From Bacteroidota bacterium (lineage in GTDB: Bacteria; Bacteroidota; Bacteroidia; UKL13-3), in contig JAIYAT010000007.1 in assembly GCA_027488905.1 (NCBI GenBank), positions 62,001 to 126,000 of the forward strand: DNA of 64,000 bases, written 5' to 3'. This document shows, in pieces, positions 5,212 to 44,652 of the stretch. A model generated the notes under the pieces. That model saw only the letters and a list, made by a program, of their open reading frames with translations, ran no database searches and had not been told where the DNA came from. The position numbers and the translations under genes were made by a program. Positions within the stretch are counted from its first letter, which is position 1; every line of letters begins with the position of its first letter.

Positions 5212-5508
5212 ATGTTTGATAAGTTAAACCAAGCCAAGCAAATGGCCGAAGGCATTAAAGCCAAATTAGAAACAATTAGTGTTATTGGTGAAGCTGAGGG
5301 AATTAAGGTTATTGCCAATGCGAATAGGAAAGTATTAGAAGTCAATATTCCTGAAAACCTGTTAAGTGAAAATAACAAAGAAGAAATTCAGGATCTCTTA
5401 TGCGTTGCAATTAACCGCGCATTAGCTGCTGCTGAGAATGTTTCAGAGGCAGAAATGCGCGGTATGATGGGAAGCATGATGCCTGGTTTAGGCGGCTTGT
5501 TTAAATAA
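5212..5508 (+). CDS. YbaB/EbfC family nucleoid-associated protein
   Basis: A 98-residue protein of the YbaB/EbfC family, dimeric DNA-binding proteins that coat the nucleoid. It shows the amphipathic N-terminal helix (MFDKLNQAKQMAEGIKAKLE), the central strand segment GIKVIANANRKVLEVNI, and a C-terminal helix ending in the Met/Gly-rich tail MRGMMGSMMPGLGGLFK typical of the family. In many bacteria the gene follows dnaX or recR; here neither is adjacent and it stands alone. Length and start match the family. Confidence 0.92.
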   Translation: MFDKLNQAKQMAEGIKAKLETISVIGEAEGIKVIANANRKVLEVNIPENLLSENNKEEIQDLLCVAINRALAAAENVSEAEMRGMMGSMMPGLGGLFK

Positions 5509-5509
5509 T

Positions 5510-6259
5510 TTATTCCTTTACAAAGGTTTTTGAATAGATGCCTTTTTCGGTTTGCATAATGATTCGATAGATGCCATTTTCTAATTCATTAAGTTCTATC
5601 TCTCCTGTGCTTCTGTATAATTCGAATTGTTTTTCGTTCATCTTCCTTCCTTGCATGTCATAAATAGAAACATTTGCCTTGCCTTTAAAATCAGGAAGGT
5701 AAAATTGTAAAACATCTTTTGCAGGGTTTGGATAAACCAATAAACTTGCTTCACTTGTTAATTCCGATGTTCCATTGGCTGGATTAACAATTATTGAATA
5801 ACGTGCATTTGAATCATTTACAGTTTGTCCAATAGGTAATGGGCCTAAGAAAGCTGTTGCTCTTATGGAAATCAAAACTATTAAAGGATAAATGCCAACT
5901 TGCCCAGACGTTGGAGTACCAACTAATTTAGCACAACCACCTGTTCCACCTACAATTTTACATTGCGAGTTGTGACAAGAATAGGTGAAACCTTCTGGCA
6001 TCCCAATCACGTTGTCTATCCACAAGGTGTCAATTTTGGCAGATACAGTTTGACCCAATTGAGGGACAAAGACAGTGGTATCTTTTGTAATAAAATATTG
6101 AATTACTTGTGAATAAGGTTTTCCAACATTTGCTTCTGCTAAAACTGCTGGAAAAGTACCTGAACTTTTAATAGCAGGGTCTGGTGCACACTGAGCAAAT
6201 ACATTTTGCGTAAAACTAAGCAAGCAAATTGCTATCATTGAAAGTAAAATTTTTTTCAT
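5510..6259 (-). CDS. T9SS type A sorting domain protein
   Basis: A 249-residue secreted protein. It has a signal peptide (MKKILLSMIAICLLSF, cleavage near NVFAQ-CAP), about 150 residues of unassigned beta-rich sequence with four cysteines (CHNSQC, GGTGGC), and a C-terminal type IX sorting domain (LLVYPNPAKDVLQFYL to IYSKTFVKE). The sorting domain is removed when the cargo is anchored or released at the surface. It converges on YbaB with one base between the stops. Its ATG overlaps the ATG of the divergent receptor gene by two bases. Confidence 0.85.
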   Translation of the reverse strand: MKKILLSMIAICLLSFTQNVFAQCAPDPAIKSSGTFPAVLAEANVGKPYSQVIQYFITKDTTVFVPQLGQTVSAKIDTLWIDNVIGMPEGFTYSCHNSQCKIVGGTGGCAKLVGTPTSGQVGIYPLIVLISIRATAFLGPLPIGQTVNDSNARYSIIVNPANGTSELTSEASLLVYPNPAKDVLQFYLPDFKGKANVSIYDMQGRKMNEKQFELYRSTGEIELNELENGIYRIIMQTEKGIYSKTFVKE

Positions 6260-37976: not shown

Positions 37977-38756
37977 TTACATTTCTAATACTACAGACAT
38001 AGAATCTGTTGAAAGATATAAGTGGGCGCCACAGCTGCATCTGAGATTAATAAAATCAAAATCGTCTGTTTTACAAGCATAGCAATAGTTGGGCAAATTA
38101 CTTCTTCTAAAGAAATTTACCTTTTTTATACGATCAAAAAGGAGTGCAATCTCTTCGTAAGTAAAGAGGCTTCTTTTATAATCAATTGTGTCTTTTATAG
38201 CTATTGGATTTTTATTATTGCTTTTTAAATGTTCAATTAGAAGTAAGCATTGCAAGGGCATAAGTACATTTTTATCCTTAGTAAAGAGCCATTTTAAGGT
38301 TGAGCCAAAAAAAGACTTAGCGCGCTTTTGATAATAAGGATGACCGGGATGTGAAGTATGAATATCTTCTAATATATAAATTGATCCATTTTTTAAGTAG
38401 TTTAAACTTTCCATGAGTGATATTTTTTGATGGAGCGGATCATGGCTTCCGTCTTCAATTAAAATATCTATGGGTTGCGCAATTGATTTTAAAATGGATT
38501 GATAGCCTTTAATGTCACTTTGATCAGCTTTAAAATATTTAATTTTGTTATCTCTAGGCCATTGCGCATTTTCATCTACTATGTCTACTCCAAAAATATT
38601 GGCTGTTGGATATTTTTCTCTCCAATAACTAATAGACTGCCCTTTAAAAACGCCAATCTCCAAAATGTTATTTGCTTGTTTTGGCAATAATTTTTCATAG
38701 AAGTCAACAAATTTGTGCCAATATATTTTATCAGAGATGTTTGAATCAATCTTCAT
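37977..38756 (-). CDS. Class I SAM-dependent methyltransferase with C-terminal Cys4 segment
   Basis: A 259-residue methyltransferase of the Methyltransf_24 / CmcI-like type. It shows motif I (NILEIGVFKGQSISYW), an acidic residue after strand 2 (NIFGVDIVDENAQWPRD), IDILIEDGSHDPLHQ and SIYILEDIHTSHPG. Relatives modify sugars or small molecules in cell-surface or antibiotic pathways. The C-terminal 30 residues are unusual: C-Y-A-C then C-S-C, four cysteines that could bind zinc. It stands alone with an AT-rich upstream region. The acceptor is unknown. Confidence 0.82.
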   Translation of the reverse strand: MKIDSNISDKIYWHKFVDFYEKLLPKQANNILEIGVFKGQSISYWREKYPTANIFGVDIVDENAQWPRDNKIKYFKADQSDIKGYQSILKSIAQPIDILIEDGSHDPLHQKISLMESLNYLKNGSIYILEDIHTSHPGHPYYQKRAKSFFGSTLKWLFTKDKNVLMPLQCLLLIEHLKSNNKNPIAIKDTIDYKRSLFTYEEIALLFDRIKKVNFFRRSNLPNYCYACKTDDFDFINLRCSCGAHLYLSTDSMSVVLEM

Positions 38757-38954
38757 TTTTATTCAATTATATTTTGAGTAAAATTAATTAAAAATTACAA
38801 TGTCTTGCTGTTTTTTCTATTCTTTAACTAGGAAACATTTTGCCCCAACTATCAATTTTTAACTTAAAACAGCTAGATGCTAAGGGAGTTGAATTTGAAA
38901 TGTGCCACCATGCGTTGTAGGGAAGTGATAAGTGGTTCAAAAAATAATTCAATA

Positions 38955-38972
38955 TAGTTGTAGGTATAACTA
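38955..38972. promoter_or_regulatory. Putative MarR operator upstream of marR
   Basis: The imperfect palindrome TAGTTGTAGGTATAACTA lies between a TTG (38958-38960) and an exact Bacteroidota -7 box TATATTTG (38980-38987), spacing 19. Binding here would block the marR promoter. A 17-of-18 identical copy lies before the next gene at 39478-39495. Confidence 0.75.
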
Positions 38973-38987
38973 ATTTAAGTATATTTG
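38958..38987 (+). promoter_or_regulatory. Promoter of marR
   Basis: TTG (38958-38960), a 19-base spacer and TATATTTG (38980-38987) match the Bacteroidota -33/-7 consensus. The predicted start site is about 10 bases before the ATG at 39006, giving a very short leader. The putative operator overlaps the -33 element and spacer. Confidence 0.7.
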
Positions 38988-39005
38988 CATCCACATTAGC
39001 GGCAA

Positions 39006-39461
39006 ATGGCAAGCTTAGAAGAAGAAATAAAACAAACTAAATTTAAGAACGAGCAAATTAAGGCCAACTTAAATGTGCTGTTTACGGCCAATTGGTTGTA
39101 TAACAAGATTTCTGAAAATTTAAGGCCCTTTAACCTCACCCATGAGCAATTTAATGTGCTACGGATCTTAAAAGGTAGCCATCCTCAGCACATGTGTCAA
39201 AAAGACGTTTTATCAAGAATGATAGCGCCAAACTCAAACGTAACGCTCATTATCAAGAAGTTAATCGCCAAGCAATTAGTTAAAGTTAGTCAATCTGAAA
39301 TGGATAAAAGGGAATACCAAATTAGTATTACCGAAACGGGATTGGGCCTTTTAGAAGAAATAGAAAATGGGTTTAATCAACAGAAAAGAACATTTAATAA
39401 CTTGAGTACCTCTGAGGCATTTCATTTAAACGCCTTGTTAGAGAAACTGAGGGAGAGCTAA
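39006..39461 (+). CDS. MarR family transcriptional regulator
   Basis: A 151-residue winged-helix repressor of the MarR family, which typically release DNA on binding a small molecule or on cysteine oxidation. It shows the dimer helix region (LTHEQFNVLRILKGSHPQHM), the recognition helix (KDVLSRMIAPNSNVTLIIKKL) and the wing (KRE-Y-Q-ISITETG). One cysteine (HMCQKD) could sense oxidation; that is inference. It is the first gene of a locus with two pirins, and the two near-identical palindromes flanking it suggest autoregulation plus control of the pirin genes. Confidence 0.9.
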   Translation: MASLEEEIKQTKFKNEQIKANLNVLFTANWLYNKISENLRPFNLTHEQFNVLRILKGSHPQHMCQKDVLSRMIAPNSNVTLIIKKLIAKQLVKVSQSEMDKREYQISITETGLGLLEEIENGFNQQKRTFNNLSTSEAFHLNALLEKLRES

Positions 39462-39477
39462 AATTTTTTTACCTATA

Positions 39478-39495
39478 TAGTTGTATGTATAACTA
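39478..39495. promoter_or_regulatory. Putative MarR operator upstream of the pirin gene
   Basis: TAGTTGTATGTATAACTA, identical to the marR-proximal site except for one central base, 16 bases before the pirin ATG. TTG (39481-39483) inside it could be a -33 element, but the -7 match (TAAACTGA, 39505-39512) is poor, so the separate promoter is less certain than the operator. Confidence 0.7.
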
Positions 39496-39511
39496 ATATT
39501 AAGATAAACTG

Positions 39512-40354
39512 ATGAATAAGAAAATATCAAAATCAAACCCCGCTTACCCAAGCAGAAGCATGGGGCCAAGCGTGCGGCAGGTAATTCCAAGTGCAATAGA
39601 CCACATTGATCCCTTTGTTTTTTTAGACCATTTTGGACCCTTAGAGAAAAAACCAGGCGGGCAAGGGGTGCCACCGCATCCACATGCGGGCATTGCCACT
39701 ATCACCTACCTTTTTGAAGGCAGCAACCGTCACCAAGATAGCTTGGGGCATGATGCTGTGGTAAATGCAGGAGATATGGCTTGGATGCAAGCTGGTAAAG
39801 GAATAGTGCATGCAGAAGGTATGCATGAAAATAGAGCCGAATCAGAATTGGTTCATGGCTTGCAATTTTGGATTTCGCTGCCTGCAAAGGATAAGTTTAT
39901 TGACCCCGCCTTTTACCATCATCTTTCGGCAGAATTGCCTCAATTTAAGTTAGGTGAAGCCACCATAACAGTACTAACTGGTGCATTATTAGGGCATCAA
40001 TCGCCTGTTAAGAGTTTATCTCCTGCTTATATGTTTGAAGTGAAAATACCTAAAAACCAAAGCCTAGCAATTCCTATTCAAGAAGGGGATACTGCAGGTT
40101 TGTACATCGTAAATGGTCATTTAAAGGTGGAGAATACGAGCCTGTTGCCAAGCAGCATGACTTCGTTTACCGAGGAAGGAAATGCTCTAGAAATGCATGC
40201 AGTAGAAGATACCCATCTCATGCTTTTTGGGGGTACGCCTCTTCATGAGCCTATTGTTGGCTATGCCTCTTACGTGATGAACAGCGATGCACAGATACGT
40301 CAGGTAATGCAAGATTATCAAATGGGCAAGATGGGAACAGTTGAAAATTATTAA
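39512..40354 (+). CDS. Pirin family protein (bicupin)
   Basis: A 280-residue pirin, an iron-binding two-cupin protein; some members oxidise quercetin and others act as redox-sensitive cofactors. It shows DPFVFLDHFGP, metal ligands in PHPHAGIATITYLFEGS (His-x-His), MQAGKGIVHAEGM (His and Glu ligands), and a second cupin from about 165. It is preceded by a copy of the MarR operator. It is followed after 19 bases by a DUF6069 membrane protein in the same direction. Confidence 0.92.
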   Translation: MNKKISKSNPAYPSRSMGPSVRQVIPSAIDHIDPFVFLDHFGPLEKKPGGQGVPPHPHAGIATITYLFEGSNRHQDSLGHDAVVNAGDMAWMQAGKGIVHAEGMHENRAESELVHGLQFWISLPAKDKFIDPAFYHHLSAELPQFKLGEATITVLTGALLGHQSPVKSLSPAYMFEVKIPKNQSLAIPIQEGDTAGLYIVNGHLKVENTSLLPSSMTSFTEEGNALEMHAVEDTHLMLFGGTPLHEPIVGYASYVMNSDAQIRQVMQDYQMGKMGTVENY

Positions 40355-40373: not shown

Positions 40374-40778
40374 ATGAACGCAAAATTAAACTACAAACAA
40401 ATCCTTACCGCAGGTGCAATTGCCGCTGCTGTATCAGTAATTATGAATGCTATCTTGTATTTTATCTTCAGAGGGGCAGGCGTTTTTACAGACACCCTTT
40501 TTATACAACCTAATCAACCCTTGACTTTAGTGCCCATAATTATTTCAAGTATACTGCCCTCTTTGATTGGTGCAAGTGTCTTTTTTCTTTTTGAAAAATA
40601 TATGAATAATGGATTTAAGGTATTTAGCATAGTAGCCCTTGTATTAATGGTTTTATCCTTTGCAAATCCATTTATGGGAATTCCTGGGATATCGGTAGCT
40701 GCAGGCATAGCGCTTAATATAATGCATGTGGTAGTAGCTTTATCTTTGTTATTCTTTATAAAAAGAGCAAAGAAATAG
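40374..40778 (+). CDS. DUF6069 family membrane protein
   Basis: A 134-residue inner-membrane protein with four hydrophobic helices (ILTAGAIAAAVSVIMNAILY, VPIIISSILPSLIGASVFFL, FKVFSIVALVLMVLSFANPF, IALNIMHVVVALSLLFFI). DUF6069 is suggested by AGAIAAAVSVIMNAILYFIF and the ILPSLIGA loop. I start it at ATG 40374; an ATG at 40341 would overlap the pirin stop. Function is unknown. Its place between two pirin genes suggests co-regulation by MarR. Confidence 0.75.
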   Translation: MNAKLNYKQILTAGAIAAAVSVIMNAILYFIFRGAGVFTDTLFIQPNQPLTLVPIIISSILPSLIGASVFFLFEKYMNNGFKVFSIVALVLMVLSFANPFMGIPGISVAAGIALNIMHVVVALSLLFFIKRAKK

Positions 40779-40806: not shown

Positions 40807-41514
40807 ATGAAATTTTTATATCGACCCAACGAGGCCCGGTGGCACAAGGAAGATGCCATGAAAAAAAGTGCCTATGCGTTTGTGCCTAACCAAACCCATT
40901 TTGGGGAACTCTGTGGTTTTGCCGATGATATTGTTAAGGCTGGAGAAGGTTTTGGCATGCACCCGCACCAAAATATGGAAATTAGTACCATTGTGGTGCA
41001 AGGTGCCCAAGCCCATAAAGACAATACGGGCAGCGAAGGAATTATCCATGAAAATTGTGTTCAGACCATGAGTGCTGGAACGGGCATCCTGCACAGCGAG
41101 TTCAATGCTTCTAAAACAGAGCCCTTTCATAGTTATCAAATATGGGTTTACCCAAAGGAGCTAAATGTAAAACCAAGGCATGAAGCGTTTACCTACCAGC
41201 CAGCAGATAAGTTGAATAAAATATGCTTGGCCTTGTCTCCAGATAGACGCAACAACTCCGCCCTCATTAATCAAAATGCTTTTTTTAGTGTTAGCCAAAT
41301 TGAAAAAGAAGTTACACTCACTTACCAAATGAATTTGAGTGGTAACGGTGTTTATGTTCATTGTGTAAGTGGCAGTATTGCCATTGATACTTATAACCTT
41401 AAAGCAGGGGATGCTTTGGGTGTATATGAAACAGAATTATTTACCATAAAAGCCTCCGAAACTACGGAACTTATTTTTGTGGAAGTTCCAATGCATAGAG
41501 GCGTTAACATTTAA
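40807..41514 (+). CDS. Pirin family protein, YhhW-like
   Basis: A 235-residue pirin of the shorter YhhW (quercetin 2,3-dioxygenase) type. Metal ligands are seen in GMHPHQNMEISTIV (His-x-His plus Glu) and MSAGTGILHSEFNAS (His and Glu). RYRPN-like LYRPNEARWH at the start and HSYQIWVYPKE are family signatures. It is 28 bases after the DUF6069 gene and 5 bases before the next, so it is in the operon. It is a distant relative, not a recent copy, of the 39512 pirin. Confidence 0.92.
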   Translation: MKFLYRPNEARWHKEDAMKKSAYAFVPNQTHFGELCGFADDIVKAGEGFGMHPHQNMEISTIVVQGAQAHKDNTGSEGIIHENCVQTMSAGTGILHSEFNASKTEPFHSYQIWVYPKELNVKPRHEAFTYQPADKLNKICLALSPDRRNNSALINQNAFFSVSQIEKEVTLTYQMNLSGNGVYVHCVSGSIAIDTYNLKAGDALGVYETELFTIKASETTELIFVEVPMHRGVNI

Positions 41515-41519
41515 CAATT

Positions 41520-41870
41520 ATGCTAGTATCAGAATACATTTCAAATGATATTGCTGCACCTGTTGTGGTGCTTTTTGGCGGCAATCCTTTGCGTAGAGAT
41601 GAGGTAATTGGTCATCTGAAGCAACTCGGCGATATTACAATTTATGGGACGCTTAGTGAGGAAGAAGGTTTAGCTAAAATTCAATCCTTGCCCAAAGTAG
41701 ATTTAGTTTTAATTGGCGGCAGATATTCCGCGGAGCAACGCAGAAGAATTAGAAAATTTGTAGCTGAAAATAGGCCAATAACCAAAATAAGCGAACCGGG
41801 TGTTGAATTTCCTTATGAAACAGAAGCCATAAATAGGGATATTCGTTTAAAATTATATTTGAATAAATGA
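41520..41870 (+). CDS. Conserved alpha/beta protein of unknown function
   Basis: A 116-residue cytoplasmic protein with no recognised family. It alternates strands and helices (APVVVLFGGNPLRRDEVIGHL, DITIYGTLSEEEGLAKI, KVDLVLIGGRYSAEQRRRIR), resembling a small receiver-like or Rossmann-type fold with GG turns. It begins 5 bases after the second pirin gene. A decayed copy of its last 27 codons lies at 44084-44167, so the gene took part in the local duplication. Confidence 0.6.
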   Translation: MLVSEYISNDIAAPVVVLFGGNPLRRDEVIGHLKQLGDITIYGTLSEEEGLAKIQSLPKVDLVLIGGRYSAEQRRRIRKFVAENRPITKISEPGVEFPYETEAINRDIRLKLYLNK

Positions 41871-41918
41871 AGGGCATAATTAATTTTGAAAGTATAGTAA
41901 ATACAAAAACCTAATAGC

Positions 41919-42197
41919 ATGGAAGTTCTACAAAAAGACAATGAAGAAAAAGGAGTATTCTATATAGCACTAGAAGGTAAGTTATTGGCGGAAATGACTT
42001 ATGTATGGGCAGGAAAGGATAGAATTATTATAGACCATACAGAGGTAAATGACTTATTAAGGGGCAAAGGCGCAGGCAAGCAAATGGTGAGTAAAGCAGT
42101 TGATTTTGCTAGAGAAAAAGGAATCAGTATTATTCCATTATGTCCTTTTGCAAAAAGTGTATTTGATAAGATGCCAGAATTTAGCGATGTATTATAA
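41919..42197 (+). CDS. YjdJ-like GNAT family N-acetyltransferase
   Basis: A 92-residue minimal GNAT protein of the YjdJ type. It has the acetyl-CoA loop LLRGKGAGKQMVSKAVDFAR (R-G-x-G-x-G/A) and the closing LCPFAKSVFDKMPEFSDVL, where the conserved cysteine-proline pair is typical. In E. coli yjdJ is next to yjdI, as here (11 bases apart). The acetylated substrate is unknown. In the duplicated block at 44.1 kb this gene has been deleted. Confidence 0.88.
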   Translation: MEVLQKDNEEKGVFYIALEGKLLAEMTYVWAGKDRIIIDHTEVNDLLRGKGAGKQMVSKAVDFAREKGISIIPLCPFAKSVFDKMPEFSDVL

Positions 42198-42208: not shown

Positions 42209-42424
42209 ATGGATAAGCATAATTTAACAAAAGAGTATTCTAACGGAGAAGTTACAGTAGTTTGGCAAGCGTCAAAATGCAGTCATTCGGCTAATTGTGT
42301 AAAAAACCTTTCCGCTGTTTTTCAGCCGCAAACCCAACCTTGGATTAAAATGGAAAATGCCAGTAGCGCAGAAATTGTAAGTACAGTTGGCAAATGTCCA
42401 TCTGGTGCATTGAGCATAAAATAG
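42209..42424 (+). CDS. YjdI-like divergent (4Fe-4S) mono-cluster protein, copy 1
   Basis: A 71-residue Fer4_19 protein. Cysteines in KCSHSANCVKNL and GKCPSGAL are the likely cluster ligands; TVVWQASKC, NASSAEIVSTVGKCPSGALSI and the PWIKM segment are family hallmarks. It follows the YjdJ-like acetyltransferase as in E. coli. It closes the MarR-pirin locus. A second copy lies at 44198-44413; the 3' parts are nearly identical in DNA while the 5' parts differ. Confidence 0.9.
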   Translation: MDKHNLTKEYSNGEVTVVWQASKCSHSANCVKNLSAVFQPQTQPWIKMENASSAEIVSTVGKCPSGALSIK

Positions 42425-42530
42425 GGGAGTGTTAGTGGCTGTTTTTTTGGCCAAGCAAAAAAGTAACAAGCGTAAAAGAGGTAAGCCCATGAATGTAGCA
42501 AAATTGTGAAAGGGAAGGTATACCCACTTA
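42425..42530. repeat. Duplicated non-coding tail, copy 1
   Basis: About 105 bases downstream of the first yjdI copy that recur almost unchanged at 44414-44520, from GTGTTAGTGGCTG through to TATACCCACTT. No convincing open frame or terminator lies in it, yet it is as conserved as the coding 3' end. Confidence 0.85.
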
Positions 42531-44197: not shown

Positions 44198-44413
44198 ATG
44201 GATAAAAATAATTTAACAAAAGAATATTCAAACGGCGAAATTACTGTGGTTTGGCAATCGTCTAAATGCATACATTCGGCTAATTGTATCAAACACCTGT
44301 CTTCTGTTTTTCAGCCGCAAACCCAACCTTGGATTAAAATGGAAAATGCCAGTAGCGCAGAAATTGTTAGTACTGTTGGCAAATGTCCATCTGGTGCATT
44401 GAGCATAAAATAG
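44198..44413 (+). CDS. YjdI-like (4Fe-4S) mono-cluster protein, copy 2
   Basis: A 71-residue paralog of the 42209 protein, with the same cysteines (KCIHSANC, GKCPSGAL). I start it at ATG 44198, matching copy 1; an in-frame TTG at 44186 is less likely. The second half is identical in amino acids to copy 1 (QPWIKMENASSAEIVSTVG), while the first half has several changes. It has lost its acetyltransferase partner, so it may be unnecessary or specialised. Confidence 0.85.
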   Translation: MDKNNLTKEYSNGEITVVWQSSKCIHSANCIKHLSSVFQPQTQPWIKMENASSAEIVSTVGKCPSGALSIK

Positions 44414-44520
44414 GTGAGTGTTAGTGGCTGTTTTTTTGGCCAAGCAAAAAAGTAACGAGCGTAAAAGAGGTAAGCCCATGAATAAAGCAGAATTGTGAAA
44501 GGGAAAATATACCCACTTTT
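44414..44520. repeat. Duplicated non-coding tail, copy 2
   Basis: Partner of 42425-42530. Only scattered differences are seen up to TATACCCACTT, after which the two sequences diverge abruptly at about 44521. Confidence 0.85.
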
Positions 44521-44652
44521 GAATATTTTTTACCATAAACATTCGGGCAGGTAAACGGACTTTTGTTAAATATGATAAATATTTTAGTCGACAATTAAAC
44601 TTTTGGAGATTTCTGCAGTCAAAGATTTGAATATTTATGAAATAAATTCCGA

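Follow-up and report, generated by a model that had tools for sequence, protein, structure and literature searches.

Genes of the marR operon

The window, a stretch of 64,000 nucleotides from a Bacteroidota bacterium to which the coordinates below refer, contains a marR gene on the plus strand (39006..39461) that encodes a MarR-family winged-helix repressor of 151 aa. The product passes the curated cut-offs of the MarR family, lying above the gathering scores of Pfam PF01047 (31.1 bits vs 24.6), PF22381 (32.9 vs 27) and PF13463 (27.9 vs 22.2), and the solved structures nearest to it are those of MarR-type MgrA, MepR and OhrR. Among the named MarR equivalogs (HpaR, BilQ, SlyA, OhrR and others) no NCBIfam cut-off was reached, the best score being that for HpaR with 37.8 bits vs 121.2.

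On the same strand, marR is followed by pirin A (39512..40354; 280 aa; Pirin and Pirin_C domains, PF02678 and PF05726), a DUF6069 protein (40374..40778; PF19545), the quercetinase-type pirin B (40807..41514; 235 aa; Pirin and Pirin_C_2, PF02678 and PF17954), a conserved 116-aa protein without a Pfam family (41520..41870), a GNAT-related N-acetyltransferase (Acetyltransf_CG; 41919..42197; PF14542) and a divergent 4Fe-4S mono-cluster protein (42209..42424; PF06902). The genes from marR through the 4Fe-4S gene are separated by gaps of 5-50 bp, and marR is the head of this co-directional operon. The DUF6069 gene is the most constant partner of marR and adjoins it or shares its operon in most orthologous loci. 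Orthologues of the 116-aa protein are found in the operons of L010, L013, L018 and, by similarity, L086; a Rossmann/receiver-like alpha-beta fold is predicted for it (model pLDDT 86), with weak fold matches (best E 1.5e-3).

The original prediction had the repressor controlling a divergent function, which is wrong because marR and all target genes point one way with short gaps between them. The sole divergent neighbour of marR is a putative methyltransferase on the minus strand (37977-38756), which was rejected as a target, no relative of it lying near marR in the orthologous loci searched.

We also note two features toward the end of the operon. A perfect TTG-N19-TAATTTTG promoter-like match (41859-41888) overlies the 3' end of the gene for the 116-aa protein, immediately 5' of the acetyltransferase/4Fe-4S pair; it is a possible internal promoter, of a kind for which matches are common by chance. 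Two minus-strand ORFs (42272-42490 and 44228-44542) are nearly identical over parts of their translations (MGLPLLR.LLFCLAKKTATNT...), which marks a local duplication.

Twin palindromes on either side of marR

As originally described, two palindromes that are identical in 17/18 positions precede marR and the first pirin gene, and exact matches are found at both positions. Both copies of the consensus, TAGTTGTA(G/T)GTATAACTA, are on the plus strand. The predicted operator site 1 (O1; TAGTTGTAGGTATAACTA; 38955..38972) takes up roughly positions -37 to -20 in the predicted promoter of marR, and its 3' end is 33 bp 5' of the marR ATG (39006). The predicted operator site 2 (O2; TAGTTGTATGTATAACTA; 39478..39495) falls within the 50 bp that separate the stop codon of marR (39461) from the ATG of pirin A (39512). 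The sole difference between O1 and O2 is one base at centre position 9. Each 18-mer is a near-perfect palindrome with 8-bp arms around a 2-bp centre; 7/8 arm pairs match, the mismatched pair being G6/T13 in both. The likeness spans 32 bp (38952-38983 vs 39475-39506, 84% identical).

O1 and O2 are the sole matches in the window at up to 3 mismatches, where a mean of 0.20 is expected, and no other site in the 3.55-Mb genome matches at 0 or 1 mismatch, the genome-wide counts resting on pattern searches. A search of the genome for more sites with the symmetric pattern at up to 3 mismatches returned background (162 matches per strand vs 233 for the reversed control). Six weaker sites were examined, five of which fall within coding sequence and one in an intergenic region (L006, G000:C6:180427). 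A wider regulon was rejected, as the weaker sites are at background and no credible extra site was found in the genome. The term regulon in the original prediction was thus an overstatement for one operon, and the genome search for further 18-mer members that it proposed found none that is credible, O1 and O2 being the only sites at 0-1 mismatch. The intergenic site at L006 (1501-2196) is of interest in its own right: the palindrome-like TATTTGTACGTATAATTA is located directly 5' of a VapBC-like toxin-antitoxin pair and is probably the operator of that pair.

Conservation across orthologous loci

The core comparison comprised 11 orthologous loci with both flanks, namely the window and ten relatives of 61-87% identity. 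O1 is present with up to 2 mismatches upstream of marR in 9/11 loci (chance 0.0025 per locus), and O2 directly after marR in all 11 (chance 0.002 per locus). The two orthologues with a degenerate O1, L010 and L014, have 3 mismatches each. The operator arms average 93-100% majority base, with 89% for the right arm of O2, vs 63-65% in the flanks. Loss of the site before orthologous loci, which would have counted against the original prediction, is therefore not what the comparison reveals.

Held-out loci gathered later by profile search gave a similar picture. Both sites were found with 0-3 mismatches in five operon-bearing loci (L085, L086, L087, L088 and L090); O2 is degenerate, with 3 mismatches, in L085, L086 and L090, and such 3-mismatch cases are individually weak (chance 0.5-3.5%). 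L084 was left out of this count, as it has the same sites as L018. Neither site is present in the clade of L089 and L091-L093 (55-59% identity; 7-8 mismatches), near whose marR homologues the operon genes were not detected. A search of eight genomes found exact sites at these marR loci only, and where a marR of this group is duplicated, in G001 and G458, a further site pair accompanies it.

In a more distant clade (43-48% identity), the 3' side of marR has a related palindrome, which overlaps a TTG-N19-TACATTTG promoter before a pirin gene. The distant MarR-pirin loci L050, L051 and L055 share the twin-palindrome layout of the window in different letters: the palindromes on both sides of marR have diverged in sequence, and the one 5' of the gene overlaps the -7 box (TGTATGTACATACATTTG). 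A correspondence between recognition-helix residues and operator flanks (NVTLIIKKL vs NATRLVEKL) was suggestive and was set aside, the rule being broken by L052.

MarR-family proteins bind pseudo-palindromes of 16-20 bp as dimers, and palindromic sites are present and conserved here. Because related Bacteroidota retain the palindromes at equivalent positions, the sites are almost certainly those bound by this repressor, and the operator of this Bacteroidota MarR group is predicted to be TAGTTGTA-NN-TAYAACTA. That the palindromes arose by chance or are remnants of a repeat or mobile element might be suggested by the AT-richness of the genome and by the few bases of likeness beyond the 18-mer; the rarity of matches expected by chance in a window of this size and the lack of any other genomic site at 0-1 mismatch speak against such an origin, and the conservation across orthologues contradicts it, so that it can be practically dismissed. 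Binding by another regulator, with the adjacent MarR as a bystander, is conceivable in that MarR binding to O1 and O2 is a prediction and that at least one paralogous MarR is encoded in the genome (G000:C11, 35% identity). Nevertheless, the sites track this marR across genomes, duplicate alongside it and are absent from the homologous clade without the operon, and we regard a second regulator as very improbable. The region upstream of the paralogue (L081; G000:C11:11000-15000) contains a perfect palindrome of a different sequence, TATATGTATATACATATA, overlapping a TATATTTG -7 box, and this distinct palindrome over the paralogue's own promoter argues against cross-talk. Genus relatives of the L081 paralogue have TAAATGTATATACATATA upstream.

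O1 and the marR promoter

The Bacteroidota sigma-A -7 box has the consensus TAnnTTTG (PMC9723704). In the window, a -7 box of this type, TATATTTG (38980..38987), is preceded by a -33 element, TTG (38958..38960), within the left arm of O1, and the resulting TTG-N19-TATATTTG (38958-38987) has the arrangement of a Bacteroidota sigma-A promoter, with TTG about 19 bp before TAnnTTTG. The predicted transcription start is at about 38992, from the box position of -12 to -5 in Flavobacterium psychrophilum. The promoter pattern by itself is weak evidence, with 5 matches in the window vs 3 expected. The promoter call is made convincing by the conservation of the geometry across orthologues: a spacer of 19-20 bp between the -33 TTG and TAnnTTTG is kept in 10/11 loci, nine of them perfect (9/9 bases) and L014 with a 5-of-6 box, and L018 deviates, with its -7 box 32 bp away. 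The overlap of the first palindrome with a consensus promoter, part of the original prediction, therefore holds true when the Bacteroidota sigma-A consensus is applied.

O2 and its possible mode of action

A Bacteroidota sigma-A promoter at O2 was sought in the 11 loci and the held-out loci, and no conserved match was found. O2 is without a conserved -33/-7 promoter and is therefore not a copy of the O1 promoter arrangement, and its action probably differs from that of O1. O2 is retained whether the next gene is pirin A, the old-yellow-enzyme gene or DUF6069, and also in L009 despite an internal deletion of pirin A; this persistence across changing next genes is what one would expect if O2 served the operon and not pirin as such. 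The natural deletion has left both palindromes of L009 untouched and reduced its pirin A to a remnant (5456-5600; also in G014) in which the first codons are fused to the last (QMGKMG). The left arm of O2, TAGTTGTA, is invariant in 13/13 loci, and the invariance of this arm alone could reflect a further function there, for example as a promoter element. For the stretch from marR to O2, a terminator or RNA hairpin was rejected, as the terminator scan is empty there and no conserved stem precedes the T-tract that lies about 8-9 bp 5' of O2 in most loci.

O2 probably works within the operon, as a roadblock or an additional operator, or else on a weak promoter. It is positioned downstream of the sole recognisable promoter, as a roadblock operator of the GbsR kind would need, and we consider the chances that it acts as a roadblock to be about even. 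O2 could instead be an ordinary promoter operator controlling a separate weak promoter at the end of marR, giving pirin A its own MarR-repressed start. The T-tract is consistent with such a promoter, as are TTG-N21-TAnnnTTT-like matches at the marR stop in the window, L009, L011 and L014, an E. coli-type match (TTGTTA-18-TAAAAT, 39435-39464), and the distant clade, where the site at this position overlaps a genuine -33/-7 promoter. However, the best match reaches 8/9 only and its position is unconserved across the 11 loci, E. coli-type matches are rarer than chance (9 vs 13.4), and a -7 box at the right distance 3' of O2 is absent save for one 5-of-6 box in L016; on this evidence we judge a separate promoter unlikely, if worth keeping in mind. 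The presence of two strong sites in one operon, with a start-to-start spacing of 523 bp in the window and close to 523 bp in orthologues, might also suggest that O1 and O2 cooperate by DNA looping rather than forming two independent blocks. This spacing, however, is dictated largely by how long marR is, with a variation of several bp. As a rule, MarR proteins form dimers, each with one operator, and looping is rare among them; we regard it as improbable here.

Among these possibilities the roadblock can be taken one step further. Tentatively, O2 would be a dedicated, conserved intra-operonic roadblock through which the synthesis of MarR itself is uncoupled from that of the detoxification genes on one transcript. 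Its ancestor would be an operator-promoter, which the distant clade still has as a real promoter; by this comparison, such an origin is possible for the O2 of the window's group.

Proposed function of the operon and candidate inducers

Several orthologous operons (L010, L011, L013, L014 and L015) contain an old-yellow-enzyme family NADH:flavin oxidoreductase (PF00724), and that of L013 also holds a nitroreductase and an OsmC-like protein. A search of the window's genome revealed no PF00724 member; this genome has lost or never had an old-yellow-enzyme gene, and the detoxification reading accordingly rests on the relatives. The combination of pirin/quercetinase, old-yellow-enzyme, nitroreductase and OsmC would suggest a response to electrophile or quinone-like stress. 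From this gene content, we somewhat favour small reactive compounds, such as electrophiles or quinone-like molecules, as the inducer class. Cys64 of MarR is conserved in most orthologues and is replaced by Ser in L015; because of this replacement a simple thiol switch is not universal, and a Cys64 thiol switch is not argued here.

Proposed circuit

O1 and O2 are very probably the operators of the MarR repressor encoded between them, which would be autoregulated and control itself together with its co-directional operon. The sequence shows the sites, their positions and conservation, the promoter geometry, the operon content and the absence of other sites; binding by this MarR and repression are predictions. 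In the uninduced state, a MarR dimer on O1 would cover the -33 element and spacer of the sole clear promoter and block RNA polymerase. By occupying O1, the repressor would keep down the expression of its own gene as well as of pirin A, DUF6069, pirin B, the 116-aa protein, the acetyltransferase and the 4Fe-4S protein. A second dimer on O2 would most likely act as a roadblock, imposing extra repression on the enzyme genes with marR still being made. Release of the repressor would probably be triggered by a reactive small molecule, electrophilic, quinone-like or other, and the detoxifying or redox enzymes would then be induced. From the original prediction, the autoregulated MarR with a second operator before its targets is strongly supported by phylogenetic footprinting, and the divergent arrangement and the regulon fall away.

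The general principle is a textbook one, and the autoregulated MarR switch is a sound, ordinary bacterial type. The circuit is unusual only in its second operator, which is conserved without a promoter that can be recognised and offers a simple and testable case of such a site inside an operon. The analysis also supplies a defined operator and promoter geometry for a little-studied Bacteroidota MarR group, and connects pirins, DUF6069 and the 116-aa protein, as yet uncharacterised, with a detoxification set of old-yellow-enzyme, nitroreductase and OsmC.

Comparison with known MarR systems

Literature searches on pirin with MarR, the palindrome motif or DUF6069 returned nothing relevant. The nearest solved relatives by sequence, MgrA, SarZ, MepR and OhrR, share local similarity only (E 2e-8 to 6e-5), and their genes and inducers differ from those of the window system. 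Their operators are palindromic and of similar length.

The roadblock proposed for O2 has a parallel in GbsR of B. subtilis, a MarR-type repressor whose operator lies past the start of transcription and which works there as a roadblock (PMC7396694). GbsR belongs to another subfamily and another pathway, glycine betaine synthesis, and its operator is near the start site, whereas O2 lies behind a whole gene.

Two systems with redox functions are described in the parts of PMC6798810 drawn on here. QsrR of S. aureus represses quinone reductases, a nitroreductase and dioxygenases (PMC6798810), and resembles the proposed circuit as a repressor of redox enzymes; it differs in having a multi-gene regulon and different targets. 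The nearest functional parallel is MhqR of S. aureus and Bacillus subtilis (mhqRED), a MarR-type repressor encoded by the first gene of the operon that it represses (PMC6798810). Like the window's marR, mhqR heads its own operon and has an operator in the promoter, with redox/quinone detoxification genes behind it as proposed for the window, and MhqR of S. aureus mounts a single-operon response in which quinones are sensed without a thiol switch (PMC6798810). The MhqR operator is a 9-9 bp inverted repeat in the promoter, TATCTCGAA-aTCGAaATA, at -6 to +12 (PMC6798810), and does not agree with the TAGTTGTA-NN-TATAACTA found here. The MhqR operon targets a ring-cleavage dioxygenase and a hydrolase, in contrast to the window operon, which has neither and contains pirins, DUF6069, GNAT and 4Fe-4S proteins instead. 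A second operator between the regulator and the enzymes, present here, is not mentioned for MhqR in those parts of the source (PMC6798810). As both operator sequence and targets differ, the window circuit and MhqR are different systems.
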